In this document: positions 3,852 through 13,305 of the stretch, one piece after another
Position numbering within the stretch: the first letter of the stretch is position 1
Layout of the letters: each line of letters opens with the position of its first letter
Origin: an uncultured SAR86 cluster bacterium
GTDB taxonomy: Bacteria > Pseudomonadota > Gammaproteobacteria > Magnimaribacterales > D2472
Direction: 5' to 3'
Assembly (NCBI GenBank): GCA_902563835.1
Contig: CACEZB010000011.1
Location: 1-38,144, forward strand
Length of the DNA: 38,144 nucleotides
Notes under the pieces: generated by a model
Told to the model about the DNA's origin: nothing
Seen by the model: only the letters and a program-made list of their open reading frames with translations
Databases searched by the model: none
Program-made: the position numbers and the translations under genes

Positions 3852-5666
3852 GTGGATAAATTAAACCAAAAGGGCTCAAGAATTGCAGAGCTTATAGAAA
3901 AAGGAAGAGAACAAGGCTATTTGACCTATGCTGATGTTAATGATCATTTGCCAGATGATATATCTGATCCAGATCAGGTAGATGAAATTATTGGGATGAT
4001 TAATGACTTGGGTTTGCAAGTTCACGAAACTGCACCTGATGCTGATACTTTGATGCTTGCTGAATCTGAAAATTCTGATGATATTGCTTTAGAACAAGCT
4101 GCTGAAGCTCTTGCTGCTGTCGAAAATGAAACTGGAAGAACAACTGATCCAGTTCGAATGTATATGAGGGAAATGGGAACCGTTGATCTTTTAACTAGAG
4201 AAGGCGAGATAGAGATAGCAAAGAGAATAGAGGAGGGAATGAGAGATCTCCTAGATGCAAGTGTTTATTATCCAAAAACAGTTGAATATGTCTTGTATTA
4301 TTTTCAACTTGTAAAAGATGGTGAAAAGAAGATTAATGATTTATTAACAGGGTTCTTAGAAGAAATGGAAGAAGTCCCTTCAGCAGGGCCCGGAAGTCAA
4401 AGAGCTAAAGAAGAAGCAGAGGCTGCTGAATCATCAGATGAAGAATCTTCCTCTGGTCCTGATATGAAAGAAGTTCAAAGACGAATGACCAGCCTCAAAA
4501 AACAATTTAATAAAACCACTAAAGTTATTGAGAAAAAAGGAAGACACTCAAAAGAAGCTAATGCAGAATACAAAAAGCTTGGGGAGATTTTCCAGTTCTT
4601 AAAATTTAGTCCGAGAATGTTCGATGATATTGCAGCTATTGCAAGACATGGATTGAATAGCCTGAGAGAAAAAGAAAGATTTATCCAAAATGAACTAGTT
4701 AAAAAAGCTCGTATGCCAAGAAAAGATTTTTTAGCTTTATATCCAGGCAATTTAACTAAAGTTAGATGGGTTGATGCCTTAATGAAAGAAAAAAAATATA
4801 AAAAAGATCTATTAGAGGCCGTTAAACAAGATGTTGTTATTGCTCAAAAAGACATTATAGCTCTTGAAGAAAAAATTGGTTTATCCATTAAAGAAATTAA
4901 AGAAATTAATAGAAATATGTCTATGGGAGAAACCAAAATGCGACGGGCTAAAAAGGATATGGTTGAAGCTAACCTTAGATTAGTTATTTCTATTGCAAAA
5001 AAATACACCAATAGAGGATTGCAATTTTTAGATTTAATTCAAGAAGGTAATATTGGTTTGATGAAAGCAGTTGATAAGTTTGAGTATAGAAGAGGTTATA
5101 AATTCTCTACTTATGCAACATGGTGGATAAGACAAGCGATTACTAGGTCTATTGCAGACCAAGCAAGAACAATCAGAATCCCAGTCCATATGATTGAAAC
5201 TATAAATAAATTAAATAGAGTCTCTCGTCAGATGATGCAAGATATGGGTAGGGAACCAACTCCAGAAGAACTAAGTCAAGAACTTGATATGCCTGAAGAC
5301 AAGGTTAGGAAAGTGCTTAAAATTGCAAAAGAACCCATTTCAACTGAAACACCTATTGGGGATGATGAAGATTCAAGCTTAGGTGATTTCATTGAAGATA
5401 CTGTTATTGAATCTCCATTAGAAAATGCTACTGAGGAAAGTTTACACTTTGCAACTGATGACGTTCTTGCCTCACTTACAGCAAGAGAAGCAAAGGTTTT
5501 AAGAATGAGATTCGGTATTGGCATGAATACAGACCATACACTTGAAGAGGTAGGCAAGCAGTTTGATGTTACCAGAGAAAGAATAAGACAAATTGAGGCA
5601 AAAGCTTTAAGAAAGTTAAGACATCCTAGTAGATCGAGTCACTTAAAAAGTTTCTTGGACGAATAA
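3852..5666 (+). CDS. rpoD: RNA polymerase sigma factor RpoD (sigma-70)
   Basis: Primary sigma factor, 604 aa, within the normal range for gammaproteobacteria. Region 1.1 (about 1-80) has the typical [17 protein letters not shown]. Region 1.2 starts at [16 protein letters not shown] near 99. A long acidic and basic non-conserved insert follows, then regions 2.1-2.4 from about 366 ([35 protein letters not shown]). Regions 3 and 4 end with [19 protein letters not shown], the -35 recognition helix-turn-helix. The start is GTG at 3852, chosen because it gives the region 1.1 start and has GAGGT at 3836-3840 upstream. It follows dnaG as in the macromolecular-synthesis operon, but rpsU is not upstream. 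It converges on the YrbL-like gene with a 3-base gap and no evident terminator. Confidence 0.98.
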
Positions 5667-5669
5667 ATT

Positions 5670-6305
5670 TTATTTCCAATTACCTTTTCTACCAGACAGA
5701 TCCCAATTAATTCTACTCCACATTAACTTAATTCTCTTTTCGACGTATCTTTTAGCAAAATAAGTTGAATAGTCATGGAGGGGTATAAATGCCTGCGGAC
5801 CAAGACCATCTATAATTTTTATTATTATTTTTCCATCTTGTTTTTTTAGAACTAGATTATGCGGAATAAGATTTTTAGTTAAGATTAAATTTTCTCTTAG
5901 CCATATATGAAATTCTTCTATAGATTTCTTTATTTCCTCAGTAACCCCATGAGTGAATAAATAATTTTCAAGAGTTTCAGCAATCTGATTGTCATTTTTT
6001 ATTAGTTCAGTTTCTGAAGCTATTCCAATATCCGTTTCAATCATTCCATACCATTTCGCTAAATGATTCCATATCTTTGGGTTATTACTTGTTAGAGCTT
6101 TTTGATTGTAAGCTTTTTGTTCTCTTAGATTATCATCAAAACTATTTTTTGATCTAAGTTTTTTATACCAAGGTTTATTCTTTATGATTTTTTCGAGCAA
6201 TCCAGGATGCACAACTTTAAGACATCTACCAGGATTATTTGGATGCACATAACATTTTCTATTACCACCTTCAGCAAATGGAGTGGAGTTACTTAGAACA
6301 ATCAT
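5670..6305 (-). CDS. YrbL-family (PhoP regulatory network) kinase-fold protein
   Basis: A 211-aa protein matching the YrbL-PhoP_reg family by its layout. It opens with a glycine-loop-like stretch and a conserved basic strand (AEGGNRKCYVHPNNPGRCLK, residues about 11-30). Near 145-160 it has a catalytic-loop-like NLIPHNLVL, and then a DFG-like IIDGLG. This is a degenerate protein-kinase fold. Family members are known as PhoP-regulated genes of uncertain biochemical role. The catalytic Asp usual before the xxPxN loop is replaced (LIPHN), so true kinase activity is doubtful. The gene stands alone on the minus strand, tail-to-tail with rpoD. Identification is by motif pattern only. Confidence 0.72.
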   Translation of the reverse strand: MIVLSNSTPFAEGGNRKCYVHPNNPGRCLKVVHPGLLEKIIKNKPWYKKLRSKNSFDDNLREQKAYNQKALTSNNPKIWNHLAKWYGMIETDIGIASETELIKNDNQIAETLENYLFTHGVTEEIKKSIEEFHIWLRENLILTKNLIPHNLVLKKQDGKIIIKIIDGLGPQAFIPLHDYSTYFAKRYVEKRIKLMWSRINWDLSGRKGNWK

Positions 6306-6371
6306 AATAAGATAATAGCCTATCAGTTTTAAATGAAAAGTTTAAAGACTTCCTTAAAAAATTAATTCTTA

Positions 6372-6377
6372 TATAAT
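6372..6377 (+). promoter_or_regulatory. Probable -10 element of the CAU tRNA
   Basis: A perfect TATAAT lies 27 bases before the mature tRNA 5' end, a reasonable distance for a short 5' leader. No convincing TTGACA-like -35 is seen 16-18 bases upstream, so the call rests on the -10 and its position. Confidence 0.4.
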
Positions 6378-6404
6378 TATCGCTCTTTTGTTCATATGAA
6401 CATT

Positions 6405-6481
6405 GGGCCTGTAGCTCAGTTGGTTAGAGCAGTGGACTCATAATCCATTGGTCGGAGGTTCGAGTCCTCCCGGGCCCACCA
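6405..6481 (+). tRNA. tRNA with CAU anticodon (Ile2 or elongator Met)
   Basis: A full 77-base cloverleaf with encoded CCA. The 7-bp acceptor stem is GGGCCTG pairing with CGGGCCC. The D arm, a 5-bp anticodon stem with loop CTCATAA, and the T arm GGAGG-TTCGAGT-CCTCC are all intact. G1-C72 pairing and the lack of three G-C pairs in the anticodon stem exclude initiator tRNA. C4-G69 and C5-G68 in the acceptor stem are features that TilS uses to pick tRNA-Ile2, whose C34 becomes lysidine to read AUA. AUA codons are frequent in the surrounding genes. Ile2 is therefore favoured, but Met cannot be ruled out by eye. It has a near-identical 3' partner at 7189-7222. Confidence 0.96.
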
Positions 6482-6484
6482 TTT
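6450..6484 (+). repeat. Direct repeat copy 1 (3' end of the CAU tRNA)
   Basis: These 35 bases recur at 7189-7222. The two copies share GGTCGG, then GGTTCGAGTCCTCCC and GCCCACCATTT; they differ by two substitutions and one missing base. The arrangement, tRNA 3' end then DNA then a second tRNA 3' end, resembles the att repeats left by elements that integrate in tRNA genes. No integrase gene lies between the copies. Confidence 0.7.
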
Positions 6485-6543
6485 GCAATTTATACTTGAT
6501 AGCACTTAATCTTGTGACTCTATATTTTTACGCCTTTCAGCAA

Positions 6544-6702
6544 CTACATCAATCTAAATGCTCTTGCTATACATAACCCACCAAACCCACCAGTTATGTA
6601 TCCCAAGATATTAGTTAACCAAAAGTCCATTGAAAAAAACCACATTCCTAATGCAAAAGATATCAGTCCCCAAATAATTCCGTAAACAAATGTCTCACTC
6701 AT
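6544..6702 (-). CDS. Small hydrophobic membrane protein, unknown
   Basis: A 52-codon frame starting MSETFVYGIIWGLISFALG. It is almost wholly hydrophobic, with two likely membrane segments at about 5-24 and 28-48 and a short basic tail (ARAFRLM). It begins five bases after the stop of the 132-aa gene on the same strand, so the two could be co-transcribed. No strong Shine-Dalgarno sequence is visible, so translation probably depends on coupling. It lies between the two tRNA-end repeats. No family is recognised. It resembles small two-span membrane proteins but could be spurious. Confidence 0.5.
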   Translation of the reverse strand: MSETFVYGIIWGLISFALGMWFFSMDFWLTNILGYITGGFGGLCIARAFRLM

Positions 6703-6707
6703 AGTAA

Positions 6708-7106
6708 TTAATTTAGTTGCCCATCAATCATTACATCACCCACACCCTTTTTCACCAGCTCTTCATGGATCACTTCCATAAAAGTATTTTGATAATCTGG
6801 TGTATTTTTTCCAAAGTCTGCTTCGATTTCTAATATGGCAACTGTAAAACCTGCTAAACCTGGACCTGAGACCCTTTTGTAGTGACTCATTATGGAGTCT
6901 TTGTCAGGGTGACTTGGGTCAGAATAAAATCTTGACTGGAGTGAAACATCTACAATTTTTAGTATTTCTTGTTGAATTCCCTCTGAAGTTTGACAATTCT
7001 TTGTATCAATTAACTGATGTGCTATTGCTTCTAGAAATCTATCAGCAACCCATCTTGCAGTGCCTCCCACAGCACCTTTTCTTGCAGCAAATTTCATTAA
7101 ACCCAT
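6708..7106 (-). CDS. Hypothetical protein (132 aa)
   Basis: Not recognised. The product is soluble-looking with mixed charge. The N-terminus is basic and glycine-rich (MGLMKFAARKGAVGGTARWV), followed by predicted helices (ADRFLEAIAHQLI) and a polar C-terminal half with Asp/Lys-rich turns (FYSDPSHPDKDSI). There is no signal peptide, membrane span or metal motif. The start was taken at the ATG giving the basic amphipathic N-terminus. It lies inside the interval bounded by the two tRNA 3' ends, so it may be cargo of a decayed integrated element. Base composition looks host-like, unlike the amine oxidase further right. Confidence 0.6.
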   Translation of the reverse strand: MGLMKFAARKGAVGGTARWVADRFLEAIAHQLIDTKNCQTSEGIQQEILKIVDVSLQSRFYSDPSHPDKDSIMSHYKRVSGPGLAGFTVAILEIEADFGKNTPDYQNTFMEVIHEELVKKGVGDVMIDGQLN

Positions 7107-7140
7107 ATATACTCCATTATCTAACTCTATTAAATATATA

Positions 7141-7167
7141 CCTACTTTTATTTTTTTTCAAAGTAGG
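7141..7167. repeat. Inverted repeat beside the tRNA remnant
   Basis: CCTACTTT at 7141-7148 is perfectly inverted as AAAGTAGG at 7160-7167, around an 11-base T-rich loop. It occupies the place where the 5' half of the tRNA-Ile should be, just left of the remnant, and lies upstream of the 132-aa minus-strand gene. It could be a recombination scar, an operator, or chance. Confidence 0.45.
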
Positions 7168-7171
7168 GTTG

Positions 7172-7219
7172 ACCCCTGATAAGGGTGAGGTCGGTGGTTC
7201 GAGTCCTCCCAGCCCACCA
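7172..7219 (+). pseudogene. tRNA-Ile(GAU) 3' fragment
   Basis: The sequence matches a bacterial tRNA-Ile from the anticodon stem onward: ACCCC-TGATAAG-GGGT stem-loop with anticodon GAU, variable region GAGGTC, T arm and CCA. The acceptor 5' strand, the D arm and everything before the anticodon stem are missing. In the T stem GGTGG faces CCTCC, leaving a T-T mismatch; the left strand fits tRNA-Ile and the right strand equals that of the CAU tRNA 0.7 kb away. One base of the acceptor 3' strand is also lost. It cannot fold as a working tRNA. Confidence 0.85.
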
Positions 7220-7222
7220 TTT
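7189..7222 (+). repeat. Direct repeat copy 2 (end of the tRNA-Ile fragment)
   Basis: Partner of 6450-6484. The shared block spans the T arm, the acceptor 3' strand, CCA and three following T residues, so identity continues past the tRNA itself. Confidence 0.7.
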
Positions 7223-7257
7223 TAAAGGGTTTCCAAGGTTTTACTGTTCTTAAAATG

Positions 7258-7263
7258 TATAAT
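7258..7263 (+). promoter_or_regulatory. Possible -10 element of the amine oxidase
   Basis: A perfect TATAAT lies 40 bases before the start codon, in the AT-rich strip between the tRNA fragment and the GC-rich gene. No well-spaced -35 is seen. It may be a host-derived promoter now driving the foreign gene. Confidence 0.3.
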
Positions 7264-7302
7264 TTCCTAATTGAGTGGGAATATAAATACTTTTAAGATC
7301 AT

Positions 7303-8607
7303 ATGTATGACAGGATCCAACATAATTCGACTGTAGTAGTAATTGGTGCTGGGGCTTCGGGTATTGCAGCGAGTGAGAATCTAATGGCCGCTGGATTCAA
7401 GGTGATCTTAATTGAAGCGCGGGATCGAATGGGCGGGCGCGCCAGTACGAGATTAGTAGGCTCCGTCCCTTTTGATGCCGGCGCCTCATGGCTTGCAGAC
7501 TCCCAAGTAAATTATCTTCGTACCACGGCGGATTCGATGGGGGTAAAGCTCTATCCAACTGATTTCAATCGTGCGCTGGTTCAATACAAGGGCGTAAACG
7601 TACCCGTCGAAGGCGCAGAATTTATGACAGCAGTTGAGAGACGGCTCACACTCCCTTACATCAAGCTCCGTATCCGCGAGTTTTTTGGGTTGCGTAAGAC
7701 ACTTCCTTCTATGGCATCCATACTAGACCCATTACTTAAGAAATACGGCGCACAGGCGGCTTACGCTAGAGAACTCATAATCGTTAACGAAGCGACCAAC
7801 CTAGATCTGACTTCAATCGCGCCGCTCTTACTCGAGCATGATTTAATCGGGGACGACGGTTACGATCCATTTCCGACGGACGATGTTATGGTCGATGGTG
7901 GGATGCAAGCGTTTGTGACTTCGCTCGCCAAGAAGGTTAAGCCCAGCTTAAGAGAAGCGGCTCAGGCTGTCATTCGAACAGAAAATGGGGTTACCGTTCA
8001 AACCACTCGCCGCCGCATCGACGCTGACGCTGTGATCGTGACAGTTCCTCTTGGTTTGCTTAAGGGTGGGACAATCCAATTTGATCCGGGATTACCCATC
8101 GAACACAGAGCTGCGATAGACCGCCTCGGATTTGGCAATGAAAAGAAAACCTGTCTCGTTTACCCCAATATGAATTGGGCTAAGGAACACCACTTGGTGG
8201 CACTGCATGACTCGCCTTATTTCAATTTCATGGTCAACGTGGCAGCGATTAAAGGCCAGCCTATGGTTATGGCCTTGAGTGCTGGGGATAAGCAGGTTGC
8301 AGCGGACTCATTGTCGATCGACGAACTGGCGACTGCACTTCACGTTAACGTCAGATCTATCTTGGGCTCCGATGCCCCCGATCCTATCGATTATAGTACC
8401 ACCGACTGGGGGAATGACCCCTATGCACTTGGCGCTTACTCACACAGTTCATTGGATACACTCGGCAATGAGAAAAAAATACTACAGCATCCAATTGCCG
8501 GTCGCATCTTGCTCGCAGGCGAAGCTCTCTCTAATCGCAGTGGATACGTCGATGGTGCGTGGAACGATGGACAAAGGGCCGCCTCTGTATTCATAAACAA
8601 TTTATGA
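7303..8607 (+). CDS. Flavin monoamine oxidase-family protein, horizontally acquired
   Basis: A 434-aa FAD-dependent amine oxidase (MAO / polyamine oxidase superfamily). The Rossmann motif is VVVIGAGASG (11-20), with Glu38 at the end of the second strand and the following RDRMGGRAST typical of this family. A GASW motif follows, and the C-terminal FAD motif is AGEALSNRSGYVDGAWNDG. Such enzymes oxidise primary or secondary amines to imines with H2O2 release; the substrate cannot be told here. There is no signal peptide. The striking point is composition: by eye the gene is near or above 50% GC with many GCG, CGC and GTC codons, whereas its neighbours are about one-third GC and favour TTA, AAA and ATA. 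It sits directly after a truncated tRNA, so recent transfer is the best reading. Confidence 0.9.
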   Translation: MYDRIQHNSTVVVIGAGASGIAASENLMAAGFKVILIEARDRMGGRASTRLVGSVPFDAGASWLADSQVNYLRTTADSMGVKLYPTDFNRALVQYKGVNVPVEGAEFMTAVERRLTLPYIKLRIREFFGLRKTLPSMASILDPLLKKYGAQAAYARELIIVNEATNLDLTSIAPLLLEHDLIGDDGYDPFPTDDVMVDGGMQAFVTSLAKKVKPSLREAAQAVIRTENGVTVQTTRRRIDADAVIVTVPLGLLKGGTIQFDPGLPIEHRAAIDRLGFGNEKKTCLVYPNMNWAKEHHLVALHDSPYFNFMVNVAAIKGQPMVMALSAGDKQVAADSLSIDELATALHVNVRSILGSDAPDPIDYSTTDWGNDPYALGAYSHSSLDTLGNEKKILQHPIAGRILLAGEALSNRSGYVDGAWNDGQRAASVFINNL

Positions 8608-8688
8608 CTACGAACATAATGTGCCAATACCCAAGATGATTTACTTTAGATATATAATAACAACTATAAATTTTATAAAGGATTTCTA

Positions 8689-10836
8689 ATGATTAAAAAA
8701 TATATGTTTATTTTTTTAACAATTTTTGTTCTAAATATTACTGCTGATGAAGGAATGTGGGAACCATATCAAATGAAATCATTACAAAAAGAACTTCGTG
8801 CCAGTGGTTATAAGGGGAGTGTTGCTAATGTTAGTGACTTATTTAAGCATCCCATGAACGCTATTGTAAGTTTAGGAGGCTGTTCAGCAGCTTTTGTTTC
8901 AGATCTAGGCTTAATAGCTACAAATTATCACTGTATAGAAAGAAGCTATCTTCAATTCAATTCAAATGCGGAATCTGATTTATTTGAAACAGGTTTTGTT
9001 GCACGAACAAAAGATGATGAAAAAAGGTCTGCTCCAGGGGCGCGTGTATATGTAACCTTAGAAAGTACTGATATTACCAATAAAGTATTAGATGGTTTAA
9101 GTGATGACACTGCTGCCCTTGAAAGAGCTGAAATTATTGAAGATAACAAAAAAGCAATAATAAGAGAGTGTGAGACTTCTGATGAATTTGAATGTAGGGT
9201 CAGATCGTTCTTTAGTGGTGAAACATATAAATTAGAAAAAGTATTAAAAATAAAAGATGTTAGATTAGTTTATGCGCCTCCCTCATACATTGGAGAATAT
9301 GGAGGAGAAATAGATAACTGGATGTATCCAAGACATACAGGCGATTTTGCATTACTTAGAGCATATACAGCCAAAGATGGTTCTAGTAAGGAATTTAACA
9401 AAGATAATGTGCCTTATAAATCTGATTCATTTTTAAAAGTTTCTGCTAAGGGTGTAAAAGATGGTGATTTTGTCATGGTTGTTGGATATCCGGGAAGAAC
9501 CAATAGAACTATTACTTTTAATGAAATCAAATGGGATCTTGAAACTGGATTTCATGAGACTGTAAAATTTCTCAAACGAGGTATTGATCTAATGGAGCAG
9601 AATACTAATTCTTCTGATGGCTCTATGCTTAAATATCGAGGTTTAAAAAGTGGTTACGAAAACTACTATAAGAAAATATCCGGTCAAATAGATGGTGCAA
9701 ACAACTTTAAACTTATTGAATCTGAGAAAATTAAATGGAGAAATTTTTTAGATTTTGTTGAAAAAGATGCATCAGAAACTGATAAAAATTATCTTAGTGA
9801 ATTACTAAACTTAATTGATGAAGATCAACAAAAAAGCCTAGCCAGATCTTACTATGGAAATTCTGCTTTAATCTCACAAGCAAAAAGAATTTATAGGAAT
9901 GCTGTTGAGAGAGAAAAAATTGATGCAGAAAGAAAACCAGGTTATCAAGATAGAGACCAGGAAAGAATTATTAATCGAATTAAGAGTCTAGATTATTCAT
10001 TTGATCCAAGAGTAGATAGGGCTATATTTGAAGATAGACTAATTGTTTATTCAGGCTTTGATTCATCCTTAAGAAGAGCTACTTATAGCAAGCTCCTTAG
10101 CTTGGATGAATCCAAGGAAATAATTCTAAGCAAAGTTGATGAGATTTATTCAACAGATTACCAAACCTCAGAAAATTTTTTACAAATGTTTGAGATGAGC
10201 TTAGATGAATTAAATAACTCTCAAGATCCCTTAATTGTTTTTGCAAAAGATACTTTTGATGAGTCTTTAGCCTATGAGAAAGAATCTGAAGAAATAGGAG
10301 CAAAAAGGCAATTACTTAAATCAAAATTTATAGGTCTTTTAAAAAAATATTATGAATCATCTGGCAAGCAAATGTATGCAGATGCCAATGGAACTCTTAG
10401 AGTTACTTATGGAAATGTTGCCGGCGTATCTCTAAAAGATGGTTTAATTTATGAGCCTTTTACAAGACTAGAGGGTATTGCTCAAAAACATTCAGGCATA
10501 AAACCATTTAATGCTAGCGAAAAACTTTTAAATTTAATCGAAGCAAAAGATTATGGTAAATATTTTTATAAGCCAATTAATTCAGTACCAGTTAACTTTC
10601 TTTCAACGTTAGATATAACTAATGGCAATTCAGGGTCTGCAACTATTAATTCAAAATTTGAGCTTGTTGGATTAGCTTTTGATGGCATGCTTGAAACAAT
10701 TATCGCAGATTATAAATATATACCTGATGCAAGAACTATTTCTGTAGATTCCAGATATCTTCTTTGGACATTAGAAAAGTTAGATGAGGCAGAAAATATT
10801 CTTGAAGAATTAACGATAAGTAATTCAATATATTAG
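8689..10836 (+). CDS. Exported S46-family dipeptidyl-peptidase
   Basis: A 715-aa serine peptidase of family S46 (DPP7/DPP11 type), which trims dipeptides from the N-terminus of peptides in the periplasm. A signal peptide spans about 1-19 (ends LNITA), followed by the family's DEGMW. The triad can be placed as His81 in ATNYHC, Asp219 in PRHTGDF and Ser648 in NGNSGSA. The long helical insertion between them (about 270-560) is the family lid. At the position that is Arg in Asp/Glu-specific DPP11, the local alignment seems to give a small residue, so a DPP7-like broad or hydrophobic preference is more likely; that is inference. Length is normal. The next gene, also exported, starts 41 bases downstream and may be co-transcribed. 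Confidence 0.9.
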   Translation: MIKKYMFIFLTIFVLNITADEGMWEPYQMKSLQKELRASGYKGSVANVSDLFKHPMNAIVSLGGCSAAFVSDLGLIATNYHCIERSYLQFNSNAESDLFETGFVARTKDDEKRSAPGARVYVTLESTDITNKVLDGLSDDTAALERAEIIEDNKKAIIRECETSDEFECRVRSFFSGETYKLEKVLKIKDVRLVYAPPSYIGEYGGEIDNWMYPRHTGDFALLRAYTAKDGSSKEFNKDNVPYKSDSFLKVSAKGVKDGDFVMVVGYPGRTNRTITFNEIKWDLETGFHETVKFLKRGIDLMEQNTNSSDGSMLKYRGLKSGYENYYKKISGQIDGANNFKLIESEKIKWRNFLDFVEKDASETDKNYLSELLNLIDEDQQKSLARSYYGNSALISQAKRIYRNAVEREKIDAERKPGYQDRDQERIINRIKSLDYSFDPRVDRAIFEDRLIVYSGFDSSLRRATYSKLLSLDESKEIILSKVDEIYSTDYQTSENFLQMFEMSLDELNNSQDPLIVFAKDTFDESLAYEKESEEIGAKRQLLKSKFIGLLKKYYESSGKQMYADANGTLRVTYGNVAGVSLKDGLIYEPFTRLEGIAQKHSGIKPFNASEKLLNLIEAKDYGKYFYKPINSVPVNFLSTLDITNGNSGSATINSKFELVGLAFDGMLETIIADYKYIPDARTISVDSRYLLWTLEKLDEAENILEELTISNSIY

Positions 10837-10877
10837 AGTTAGATAGATTATTTCTGAATTTTTTATCAAGAAAAAAG

Positions 10878-11846
10878 ATGATTAAAATTTTACTTTCATT
10901 ATATTTACTTATTTCAGTATCTCTTTTTGCTGAATACAAGAATACAAATGGTGAATCTTTAGATAAAACATTTAGCGATATGATTAAATGGATTAGATCT
11001 GACATTGAACCAAAAATAAGCAATATAGAAATATCTTCTGAATGGAAGAATTTGAATCTACAAGAAGATGATAATTATGTTATTTGGATTGGCCATTCAA
11101 CCTTTTTAATTAAAAAAGATGGAATAACAATACTTACAGATCCAGTTTTTTCTGATCGAGCTTCTCCTTTCAAAAACATTGGGCCAAAAAGACTTATTCC
11201 TCCTGCAATACCACTAGATAAAATTCCTAATATAGACTTTGTAACTGTTAGTCACAATCACTATGATCATTTAGATATAAAATCCTTAATTAAGATTTCA
11301 AAAAAACATCCAAAAGCTATTTTTTTAGTTCCAGCTGGAGATCTTAAGCTGCTGAAAAGAAAAAGAATTAAAAATGCTTATGAATTTAAATGGTGGCAAT
11401 CATTTAAAGCAAGCAATTTTGAATTTATCTTTACTCCTGTTCAACATTGGTCAAAAAGATCCTTATTTGATAGAAATAAAAGTTTATGGGGAGGTTGGTA
11501 CATAAAACATAAGGAATATTCTTTATATCATGCTGGTGATACCGGATATTCTAATGATTTTAAAGATACAAAAATTAAACTCGGTTCCCCTAAATATGCA
11601 TTCATACCAATAGGTGCATATGACCCTGAATGGTTTATGGCAGAGAGCCATGTAAATCCTGAAGATGCCATTCAAATCATGTTAGATTTGGAAGCAGAAA
11701 AAGCTTTTGGGATGCATTGGGGCACTTTTTCTCTTACTGATGAGGATACAATCGAACCAAGAGAAAGGCTTAAAAATGCTGTTAAAGAAAATAATTCGAT
11801 TGATTTTATAACCTTAAAACCAGGAAAAACAATTAATTTAGAATAA
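10878..11846 (+). CDS. Exported MBL-fold metal-dependent hydrolase (NAPE-PLD/RomA-like)
   Basis: A 322-aa metallo-beta-lactamase-fold protein. The hydrophobic N-terminus (1-18, MIKILLSLYLLISVSLFA) looks like a signal peptide. The zinc motif is SHNHYDHLD near residue 130, preceded by WIGHSTFLI and LTDPVFSDRASP, which are typical of the NAPE-PLD/RomA branch. Further ligands are the His in the TPVQHW stretch, the Asp in YHAGDTGYS and the His in FGMHWGTF. Relatives include phospholipase D-type enzymes acting on N-acyl-phosphatidylethanolamine and outer-membrane-linked RomA proteins; the substrate here is unknown. The Asp-rich motif and length support a catalytically intact enzyme. Confidence 0.85.
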   Translation: MIKILLSLYLLISVSLFAEYKNTNGESLDKTFSDMIKWIRSDIEPKISNIEISSEWKNLNLQEDDNYVIWIGHSTFLIKKDGITILTDPVFSDRASPFKNIGPKRLIPPAIPLDKIPNIDFVTVSHNHYDHLDIKSLIKISKKHPKAIFLVPAGDLKLLKRKRIKNAYEFKWWQSFKASNFEFIFTPVQHWSKRSLFDRNKSLWGGWYIKHKEYSLYHAGDTGYSNDFKDTKIKLGSPKYAFIPIGAYDPEWFMAESHVNPEDAIQIMLDLEAEKAFGMHWGTFSLTDEDTIEPRERLKNAVKENNSIDFITLKPGKTINLE

Positions 11847-12000
11847 TATTTTTATCAAAATATAGTTTATAAATTAGTTCAAAATAATGCTTAATTTTTA
11901 GGCATAAATCTATTGAAAATTTTGATTTACAAAGTTAAAAAAATGTCGTTTAATCAGATGATAAATCTTATATATTTGTCATAAATTTGAAGGGGGAAAT

Positions 12001-13305
12001 ATGACTCATCCAAACCATCCAAGTGTAGATCAAAGTGATCGGGTAGTACCATATAATCTAAGGCAGAGTGGCCGTACTCCAACCGAACTATTAATCTCAA
12101 CTCGTGTAAGAAAATCGCCTTTTTGGCATCTATCCCATGAAGCGGGTTGCTGGAGAGCAACAATTTATAATCGAATTTATCATCCAAGAGGATACGTTAG
12201 ACCTGAGGATGGTGGAGCCATGGTTGAATATGACGCATTAGTGAATAGAGTAACTATGTGGAATGTTGCTGTTGAAAGACAGATAAGAGTTAAAGGGCCA
12301 GACGCAGAAGCTTTTACAGATTTTGTAATAACTCGTGACGCAACAAAAATTGAACCGATGCATGGCAAATATGCAATATTATGTAATGACAAGGGCGGGA
12401 TTCTTAATGATCCAGTTTTATTAAGACTTGCAGAAGATGAATTTTGGTTTTCTATTTCAGATAGCGATCTTTTGTTATGGCTTCAAGGAGTAAATGTAGC
12501 GAAAAAATTTGATGTCAAGATTGATGAAATAGATGTATGTCCTGTTCAAATACAGGGACCTTTATCTGAAGATCTTATGGCTAAGTTAGCTGGTGAAGAA
12601 TTAAGAGATGTTCCATATTACGGACTAATGGAAACAAAAGTTGGCGGAGCTGATTGTGTTATTAGCCAAACTGGATTTACTGGTGAAAAAGGTTATGAAA
12701 TCTATGTTCGTGATGCACATGAAAATGCAGAAAAAATGTGGAATGCAGTTCTTGAAGCAGGTGAGGAATTTGGTTTAATGGTTATAGCACCAGCTCATCA
12801 TCGTAGAATTGCAGCTGGTATTTTATCTTGGGGTCAAGATTTAGATCATGAAACATCTCCATTCCAAGTTAATCTTGCATATCAAGTGCCTCGAAATAAA
12901 GCTGCTGATTATATTGGTAAAGAAGAGCTTGAAAAACAAAGAGCAGTCATTGATGATGGCAAAGCTCCTTTTAAAATGAAAATGGTTGGCATAACTTTAG
13001 GCGGAAAGGAAATAACAGATTATGCTCCAGATTTTTGGTTGATTGCTGATACCGATGGAAATGATATGGGTTATGTCACTTCTCCTTGGTGGTCTCCAGA
13101 GCTCGAAACAAACATTGCTCTAGCTTGGGTGCCATGGTCTTCATCGGAAATAGGCACTAAATTATTAGTTAGATTACCTGATGAATATTCAGTATCACCT
13201 GGCGAGCCAGTTGAAGGCGAAGTTGTTGATGTTCCATTTAGAGAGTCAGTTAATCCTAATAAAAGAGAAGTTGAAAAAGCAAAAGGACTCGATTTCGCTG
13301 AATAA
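12001..13305 (+). CDS. GcvT-family folate-dependent enzyme, DmdA-like
   Basis: A 434-aa protein of the aminomethyltransferase (GcvT) superfamily that resembles the DMSP demethylase DmdA more than glycine-cleavage T protein. Shared stretches include WNVAVERQIRVKGPDA, GGILNDPVLLRLAEDEFWFS followed by ISDSDLLLW, and VQGPLSEDLMAKL. DmdA and relatives move a methyl group from a substrate to tetrahydrofolate. It is about 65 residues longer than SAR11 DmdA, mostly by an N-terminal extension (YNLRQSGRTPTELL) and extra C-terminal residues. Whether it acts on DMSP, glycine betaine or another methylated osmolyte cannot be decided. A strong ribosome site (GGGGG about 4 bases upstream) precedes the ATG, and a terminator-like hairpin follows, so it is probably a single-gene, well-expressed unit. 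Confidence 0.85.
   Translation: MTHPNHPSVDQSDRVVPYNLRQSGRTPTELLISTRVRKSPFWHLSHEAGCWRATIYNRIYHPRGYVRPEDGGAMVEYDALVNRVTMWNVAVERQIRVKGPDAEAFTDFVITRDATKIEPMHGKYAILCNDKGGILNDPVLLRLAEDEFWFSISDSDLLLWLQGVNVAKKFDVKIDEIDVCPVQIQGPLSEDLMAKLAGEELRDVPYYGLMETKVGGADCVISQTGFTGEKGYEIYVRDAHENAEKMWNAVLEAGEEFGLMVIAPAHHRRIAAGILSWGQDLDHETSPFQVNLAYQVPRNKAADYIGKEELEKQRAVIDDGKAPFKMKMVGITLGGKEITDYAPDFWLIADTDGNDMGYVTSPWWSPELETNIALAWVPWSSSEIGTKLLVRLPDEYSVSPGEPVEGEVVDVPFRESVNPNKREVEKAKGLDFAE

Follow-up and report, generated by a model that had tools for sequence, protein, structure and literature searches.

Additive flexible genomic islands, in which gene cassettes target tRNA genes, have been described from 'Candidatus Actinomarinales' (PMC7771536), in a paper in which the word integrase does not occur. 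The additive island fGI-2 of 'Candidatus Methylopumilus' (Methylophilaceae) contains recurring repeats of the last 20 bp of a tRNA-Lys, which mark inserts between 330 bp and 42 kb in size (PMC10872708). The part of that source concerned with the tycheposons of Prochlorococcus describes them as cargo elements at tRNA genes, tRNA-Met being among the targets, and as equipped with a tyrosine recombinase (PMC10872708). A published SAR86 paper mentions only a hypervariable envelope region (PMC3569297), and we found no report of a tRNA-anchored additive island for SAR86. This lineage is abundant and uncultured in the surface ocean and has a streamlined genome with very few recognisable mobile elements.

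The SAR86 locus described here resembles the islands of the Actinomarinales in that small cassettes target tRNA genes within a streamlined marine genome. It differs from them in the tRNAs used (CAU and Ile(GAU)), in a cargo of metal, phosphate and defence genes, in cassette arms that are conserved between genera and in one fragment that stands at a non-cognate tRNA. As in fGI-2 the inserts are marked by tRNA-end repeats, the repeats at the SAR86 cassette ends being tRNA fragments, but the tRNA is a different one, and whereas the repeats of fGI-2 precede islands in varying number, those of SAR86 form the distal end of each insert. With the tycheposons, as far as that part of the source describes them, the locus shares the placement of cargo at tRNA genes of oligotrophic marine bacteria; unlike in them, no tyrosine recombinase was recognised among the CAU-site cargo genes, and SAR86 genomes mostly hold two Xer-type genes only. 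Classical integrase-bearing islands and satellites at tRNA genes also displace an anticodon-to-CCA identity block to their distal end. The CAU-site cassettes differ from these in having no recognised integrase, integrase-bearing elements having been seen in SAR86 at tRNA-Leu (G004 and G027) and not here.

Gene content at the tRNA(CAU) site

The window, by which we mean the whole stretch of 38,144 nucleotides analysed here, is contig 11 of the SAR86 genome G000 (0.99 Mb, 73 % complete). This genome presumably represents either one cell or a metagenome-assembled genome (MAG). The named records of the same genus are SAR86 cluster single cells and MAGs. Many of the genomes compared are incomplete and the collections searched are samples; the variable zone itself was compared across 20 related genomes in which both flanks are present. 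Coordinates of all features are collected in Table 1.

Table 1 Features of the window and of the related loci referred to in the text
Feature	Genome or contig	Coordinates	Strand	Role and evidence
rpoD	window	3852..5666	+	conserved left flank; Pfam Sigma70 domains; genus-wide left of the tRNA
YrbL/PhoP_reg family gene	window	5670..6305	-	conserved left flank; PF10707, E 1.4e-32; same place across the genus
Intact tRNA, CAU anticodon	window	6405..6481	+	insertion target; ARAGORN and Rfam (75.5 bits)
52-aa hydrophobic ORF	window	6544..6702	-	orphan cargo; sequence
132-aa ORF	window	6708..7106	-	orphan cargo; predicted mostly helical, low confidence, model pLDDT 50.6
Inverted repeat CCTACTTT...AAAGTAGG	window	7141..7167	+	beside the fragment; possible cassette-end arm; folding z -1.5, not significant alone
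Displaced 3' fragment of tRNA-Ile(GAU)	window	7172..7219	+	distal cassette end; anticodon arm to CCA
Foreign flavin amine oxidase gene	window	7303..8607	+	just right of the fragment; PF01593; G+C 0.503 (window 0.332)
Peptidase S46 and metallo-beta-lactamase-fold genes	window	8689..11846	+	further variable content
GcvT-like gene	window	12001..13305	+	conserved flank to the right of the variable content; PF01571; right border in 20 genomes
Displaced CAU fragment	G032	34-77 (tRNA positions)
Displaced CAU fragment	G054	33-77 (tRNA positions)
Displaced CAU fragment	G030	36-77 (tRNA positions)
Displaced CAU fragment	G013	32-65 (tRNA positions)
Own-genus tRNA-Ile(GAU)	G000, C2	33784-33862		divergent from sister genera
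Two successive inserts at tRNA-Ile	G128, L234	3310-9756 (oriented)		phosphate-related cargo in one
Type I restriction-modification cassette	G184, L238	1806-8435		between tRNA-Ile and its displaced fragment
tRNA-Leu(TAG) elements	G004, G027 (L201, L202)	8837-12678, 5978-9578		integrase-bearing
Three full CAU tRNAs	G012, L036	2512-7443 (oriented)		N gap and repeated flanks
Phage-encoded tRNA(CAU)	IMG/VR L134, L135	1874-1950, 7551-7627		full tRNA gene

Across the genus, in the 20 genomes with both flanks, the order rpoD, yrbL and tRNA(CAU) to the left and a GcvT-like gene to the right is constant. The gene between rpoD and the tRNA is no orphan but a member of the YrbL family. ARAGORN and Rfam agree on the complete CAU tRNA that had been read from the sequence, and in most of 60 relatives that were searched all of its 77 nt are the same.

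Between the tRNA and the GcvT-like gene the 20 genomes hold 0.1 to 10.2 kb of changing gene content. The cargo of this zone includes DUF411, CobW, an Fe2+ transport protein, a CREG/PNPOx-fold (haem-utilisation-like) protein, an ABC importer and a TonB-type receptor, as well as an S46 peptidase, a purple acid phosphatase, a sulfatase-like protein and others (names given without a Pfam search were assigned by inspection). In G016 the site is empty, with 123 bp between tRNA and GcvT-like gene, so that a relative with one intact tRNA and no insert, which the first-pass annotation had proposed to look for, does exist. That annotation had also considered the case of close relatives all sharing the same fragment and the same two genes; their content in fact varies strongly.

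Short inserts at this tRNA end in 3' fragments of the CAU tRNA, starting from the anticodon arm, in four other genomes, of which G054 belongs to another family and G013 has a decayed fragment. Directly after the fragment of G030 come TTATTG and the cobW end (junction ACCA/TTATTG), as they come after the intact tRNA in G032, G006 and others. Since the fragment stands exactly where the intact tRNA adjoins cobW in relatives, the phosphatase cassette of G030 must have entered at the tRNA, displacing the old tRNA 3' end and cobW with it. A fragment stands in the same manner in front of the DUF411 end in G054.

An intact tRNA at one border and a partial direct repeat of a tRNA at the insert end are both seen at the CAU site, the partial repeat being present in G000, G032, G054, G030 and G013. 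It derives from the bordering tRNA in G032, G030 and G054, as is usual for such islands, although the published descriptions do not call this essential; the window has an Ile(GAU)-type repeat next to a CAU tRNA, and the tail of this repeat may belong to either type. The closest relative, G032 (AG-430-O03), is 93 % identical to the window in the left flank and 95.6 % identical to the right of the fragment. Between these flanks G032 has CobW and DUF411 with a CAU-type fragment, and the window has two orphans with a tRNA-Ile-type fragment. The suggestion that this is a small integration hotspot is strongly supported by the empty site, by differing cargo at the same place and by displaced fragments at cassette ends. 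Because most variable regions in the genus are without a recognisable tRNA fragment, ordinary homologous recombination between the flanks may account for part of the turnover. Three full CAU tRNAs in G012 (SAR86A) were considered as a tandem insertion and rejected, given the N gap and repeated flanks; they probably represent alternative alleles that were linked up when a population was assembled.

The two minus-strand genes between tRNA and fragment had been called unknown, and no relatives of either were found. The 52-aa ORF has no Pfam match and is absent from the other 19 cargo sets compared. The 132-aa ORF has no Pfam or PHROG match and no relative in 199 genomes of the SAR86 order, 369 genomes of the class, the genome contigs, IMG/VR or phages, and the model of its protein, made without relatives, was too poor for a structure search. 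The neighbouring gene just outside, the amine oxidase, is clearly foreign by its G+C, as had been noted. Its only close copy among 199 SAR86 genomes is a decayed one in G032 with large internal deletions, and because G032 retains only this deleted copy, the gene is being lost.

Origin of the tRNA-Ile(GAU)-type fragment

The truncated 3' half of a tRNA-Ile(GAU) recognised at the distal end of the window cassette aligns with a SAR86 tRNA-Ile(GAU), of the sister-genus type, over 49 columns with a score of 86, against a best score of 27 in 30 shuffled 10-kb sequences. The two differences are one mismatch, A to T in the T stem, and one deleted base, an A; the T-T mismatch reported for this stem is present by inspection. 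Neither ARAGORN (bacterial or default mitochondrial settings) nor Rfam calls the fragment as a tRNA. The ends said to be shared with the CAU tRNA are in common over 35 columns, including TTT after the CCA, although at 91 % identity the repeat is near-perfect and not perfect.

A full tRNA-Ile(GAU) is present elsewhere in the same genome, but its sequence is different from that of the fragment. This own-genus form, which 30 of the 34 genomes of the genus possess, G000 included, departs from sister genera in its anticodon stem and T arm. The fragment, by contrast, has 96 % identity with the tRNA-Ile of G034 and of further genera in the family. Since the tRNA-Ile of its own genus is divergent and the fragment matches sister genera, the fragment cannot derive from its own genus and is of a foreign tRNA-Ile type, that of sister genera. 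In view of the same two observations, the proposal that two tRNA genes recombined within one cell is not supported. The changed tRNA-Ile(GAU) of the genus possibly represents an escape from integration.

We consider it very probable that SAR86 has an insertion hotspot, an additive flexible genomic island, at the 3' end of its CAU tRNA gene downstream of rpoD and yrbL, and that the latest event there in the window was the entry of a 0.7-kb cassette with an end of the sister-genus tRNA-Ile(GAU) type. Small cassettes holding a single gene or a few would recombine into the tRNA gene, each bringing a replacement 3' end that keeps the tRNA intact and leaving an anticodon-to-CCA fragment at its far end. 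The window cassette would have carried the 52-aa and 132-aa genes and brought its terminal fragment from a sister SAR86 genus, in which the same cassette type uses tRNA-Ile. Because fragments start at the anticodon loop and integrase remnants exist, we infer that the insertions were the work of a tyrosine integrase which either acted in trans or was lost afterwards. The window fragment is of tRNA-Ile type up to the T arm and the left tRNA is fully CAU, which is not the product of a simple reciprocal crossover in the anticodon loop. Given an intact CAU tRNA to the left and a tRNA-Ile fragment to the right, the crossover at entry would have lain near the tRNA 3' end (CCCACCATTT or GGTTCGAGTCC) and not in the anticodon loop.

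The tail of the fragment, CCTCCCAGCCCACCA, may be original or chimeric. The remnant had been described as chimeric, and a true chimera would be a sub-case of the hotspot explanation with another last step: an ancestral CAU fragment would have stood before the amine oxidase gene, and an incoming tRNA-Ile-type cassette would have replaced the older one by recombination within GGTTCGAGTCCTCCC, with Ile sequence left and CAU sequence right. Such a replacement fits the fragment at the same place in G032, next to its closely similar right flank, the 15 exact bases in common across the T arm, and the predicted lack of CobW and DUF411 to the right of the window fragment. It needs two more changes in the tail relative to the CAU tRNA (G to A and one lost G), however, and so gains no parsimony over a tRNA-Ile fragment with two changes. 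A displaced and dead tRNA-Ile fragment of G128 moreover has a G at the same T-stem position, which shows that such changes arise alone. A chimera and a single foreign tRNA-Ile fragment with two changes are therefore equally parsimonious, so that the chimera is possible but not proven; the CAU-like half need not be a crossover, and we regard the chimera as a credible last step about which we are somewhat sceptical.

It is improbable that the fragment is instead a mini tRNA-Ile gene whose D arm was deleted, and not a fragment of the attachment type. Directly before the anticodon arm GGGTTG (7166-7171) pairs with CAGCCC (7210-7215) at 6 of 6 bases (one G-U), as only 0.00065 of random window positions do, but this pairing was noticed post hoc and a comparable 5' strand is missing in the other fragments. 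The T stem with its T-T mismatch, the lack of a call from ARAGORN or Rfam under the settings given above and a regional RNA fold that is not unusual (z -1.17) also speak against such a gene. An old, inert duplication of a tRNA fragment unrelated to mobility is extremely improbable, for while the fragment goes unrecognised as a tRNA gene and so is probably non-functional, the idea is refuted by how strongly the site varies among close relatives. Cassettes of unlike content, moreover, terminate in similar fragments at two tRNA genes and in several genera.

Cassettes at tRNA-Ile(GAU), integrases and carriers

The hotspot explanation extends to sister genera, where tRNA-Ile(GAU) is a site of cassette insertion with partial repeats in G128, G060, G194, G164 and G184, and also in G049 of another family. 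G128 has two successive inserts at tRNA-Ile with two fragments, one insert encoding a PstS-like protein, an apparent phosphate transporter set and a C-terminal integrase remnant. There are 10.5 kb with a GmrSD-type gene at tRNA-Ile in G060, two tRNA-Ile fragments in G164 and a type I restriction-modification cassette in G184. The tRNA-Ile fragments mostly start exactly at CTGATAAGG, and three cassettes that come from three genera and differ in cargo have 66-100 nt in common directly before this core (scores 77-150, where 99 % of shuffles reached at most 26). The CAU cassettes of G030 and G054 likewise have an arm in common (score 38). That arms are common to cassettes with unlike cargo suggests that the cassette ends are the mobile unit. 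The left arm of the window resembles the arms of the tRNA-Ile cassettes only at noise level and is not clearly related to them. Rather speculatively, and with doubt, one may imagine a SAR86 family of cargo-only cassettes with conserved ends (about 60-100 nt plus the anticodon-to-CCA core) that would jump between tRNA-Ile(GAU) and tRNA(CAU) and between genera, served in trans by an integrase that is rare or decayed; the window would hold one such cross-site jump. The arms at L234, L237 and L238 contain an inverted repeat of the form AAACC(C/T)TATACCTA(A/T)AGG(G/T)TTT, together with repeats GAACGAACGA, before CTGATAAGG.

No integrase was recognised among the cargo genes of the CAU-site cassettes, and in nearly every SAR86 genome the Phage_integrase genes number no more than two, which fits XerC and XerD. 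The integrase remnant beside the G128 tRNA-Ile fragments is a 57-aa C-terminal piece (weak Pfam match, E 0.035) with partial relatives in G164 and G099.

Within the genus, G004 and G027 carry an integrase-bearing element at tRNA-Leu(TAG). It encodes a divergent integrase-like protein of 412-420 aa, a short tyrosine recombinase and a large replication-like protein, and looks like a satellite or plasmid-type element. These divergent integrase-like genes escape PF00589, so absence by Pfam is no proof that an integrase is absent. As the enzyme acting here the tRNA-Leu integrase was rejected, there being no clear homologue near the CAU site. A viral carrier was rejected as well: within IMG/VR the CAU core turned up solely as part of a full tRNA gene that two related phage contigs encode, and the viral carrier searches did not find the tRNA-Ile core or the cassette arms. 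On these two phage contigs the tRNA(CAU), with 3' 43 bases equal to those of SAR86, lies beside a tRNA-Arg(TCT).

Conclusions

The same pattern occurs in the Actinomarinales (PMC7771536) and the Methylophilaceae (PMC10872708), and the SAR86 site is thus another case of a pattern known from other streamlined marine bacteria; less usual here are the occurrence of a tRNA-Ile end at a CAU site and the conservation of arms around cargo that differs. The cassette end sequences are usable as queries for the vehicle and the enzyme. For SAR86, a site marked by tRNA fragments would be a place at which phosphate, metal-handling and defence genes are gained, and would offer streamlined genomes adaptability without their carrying integrases.
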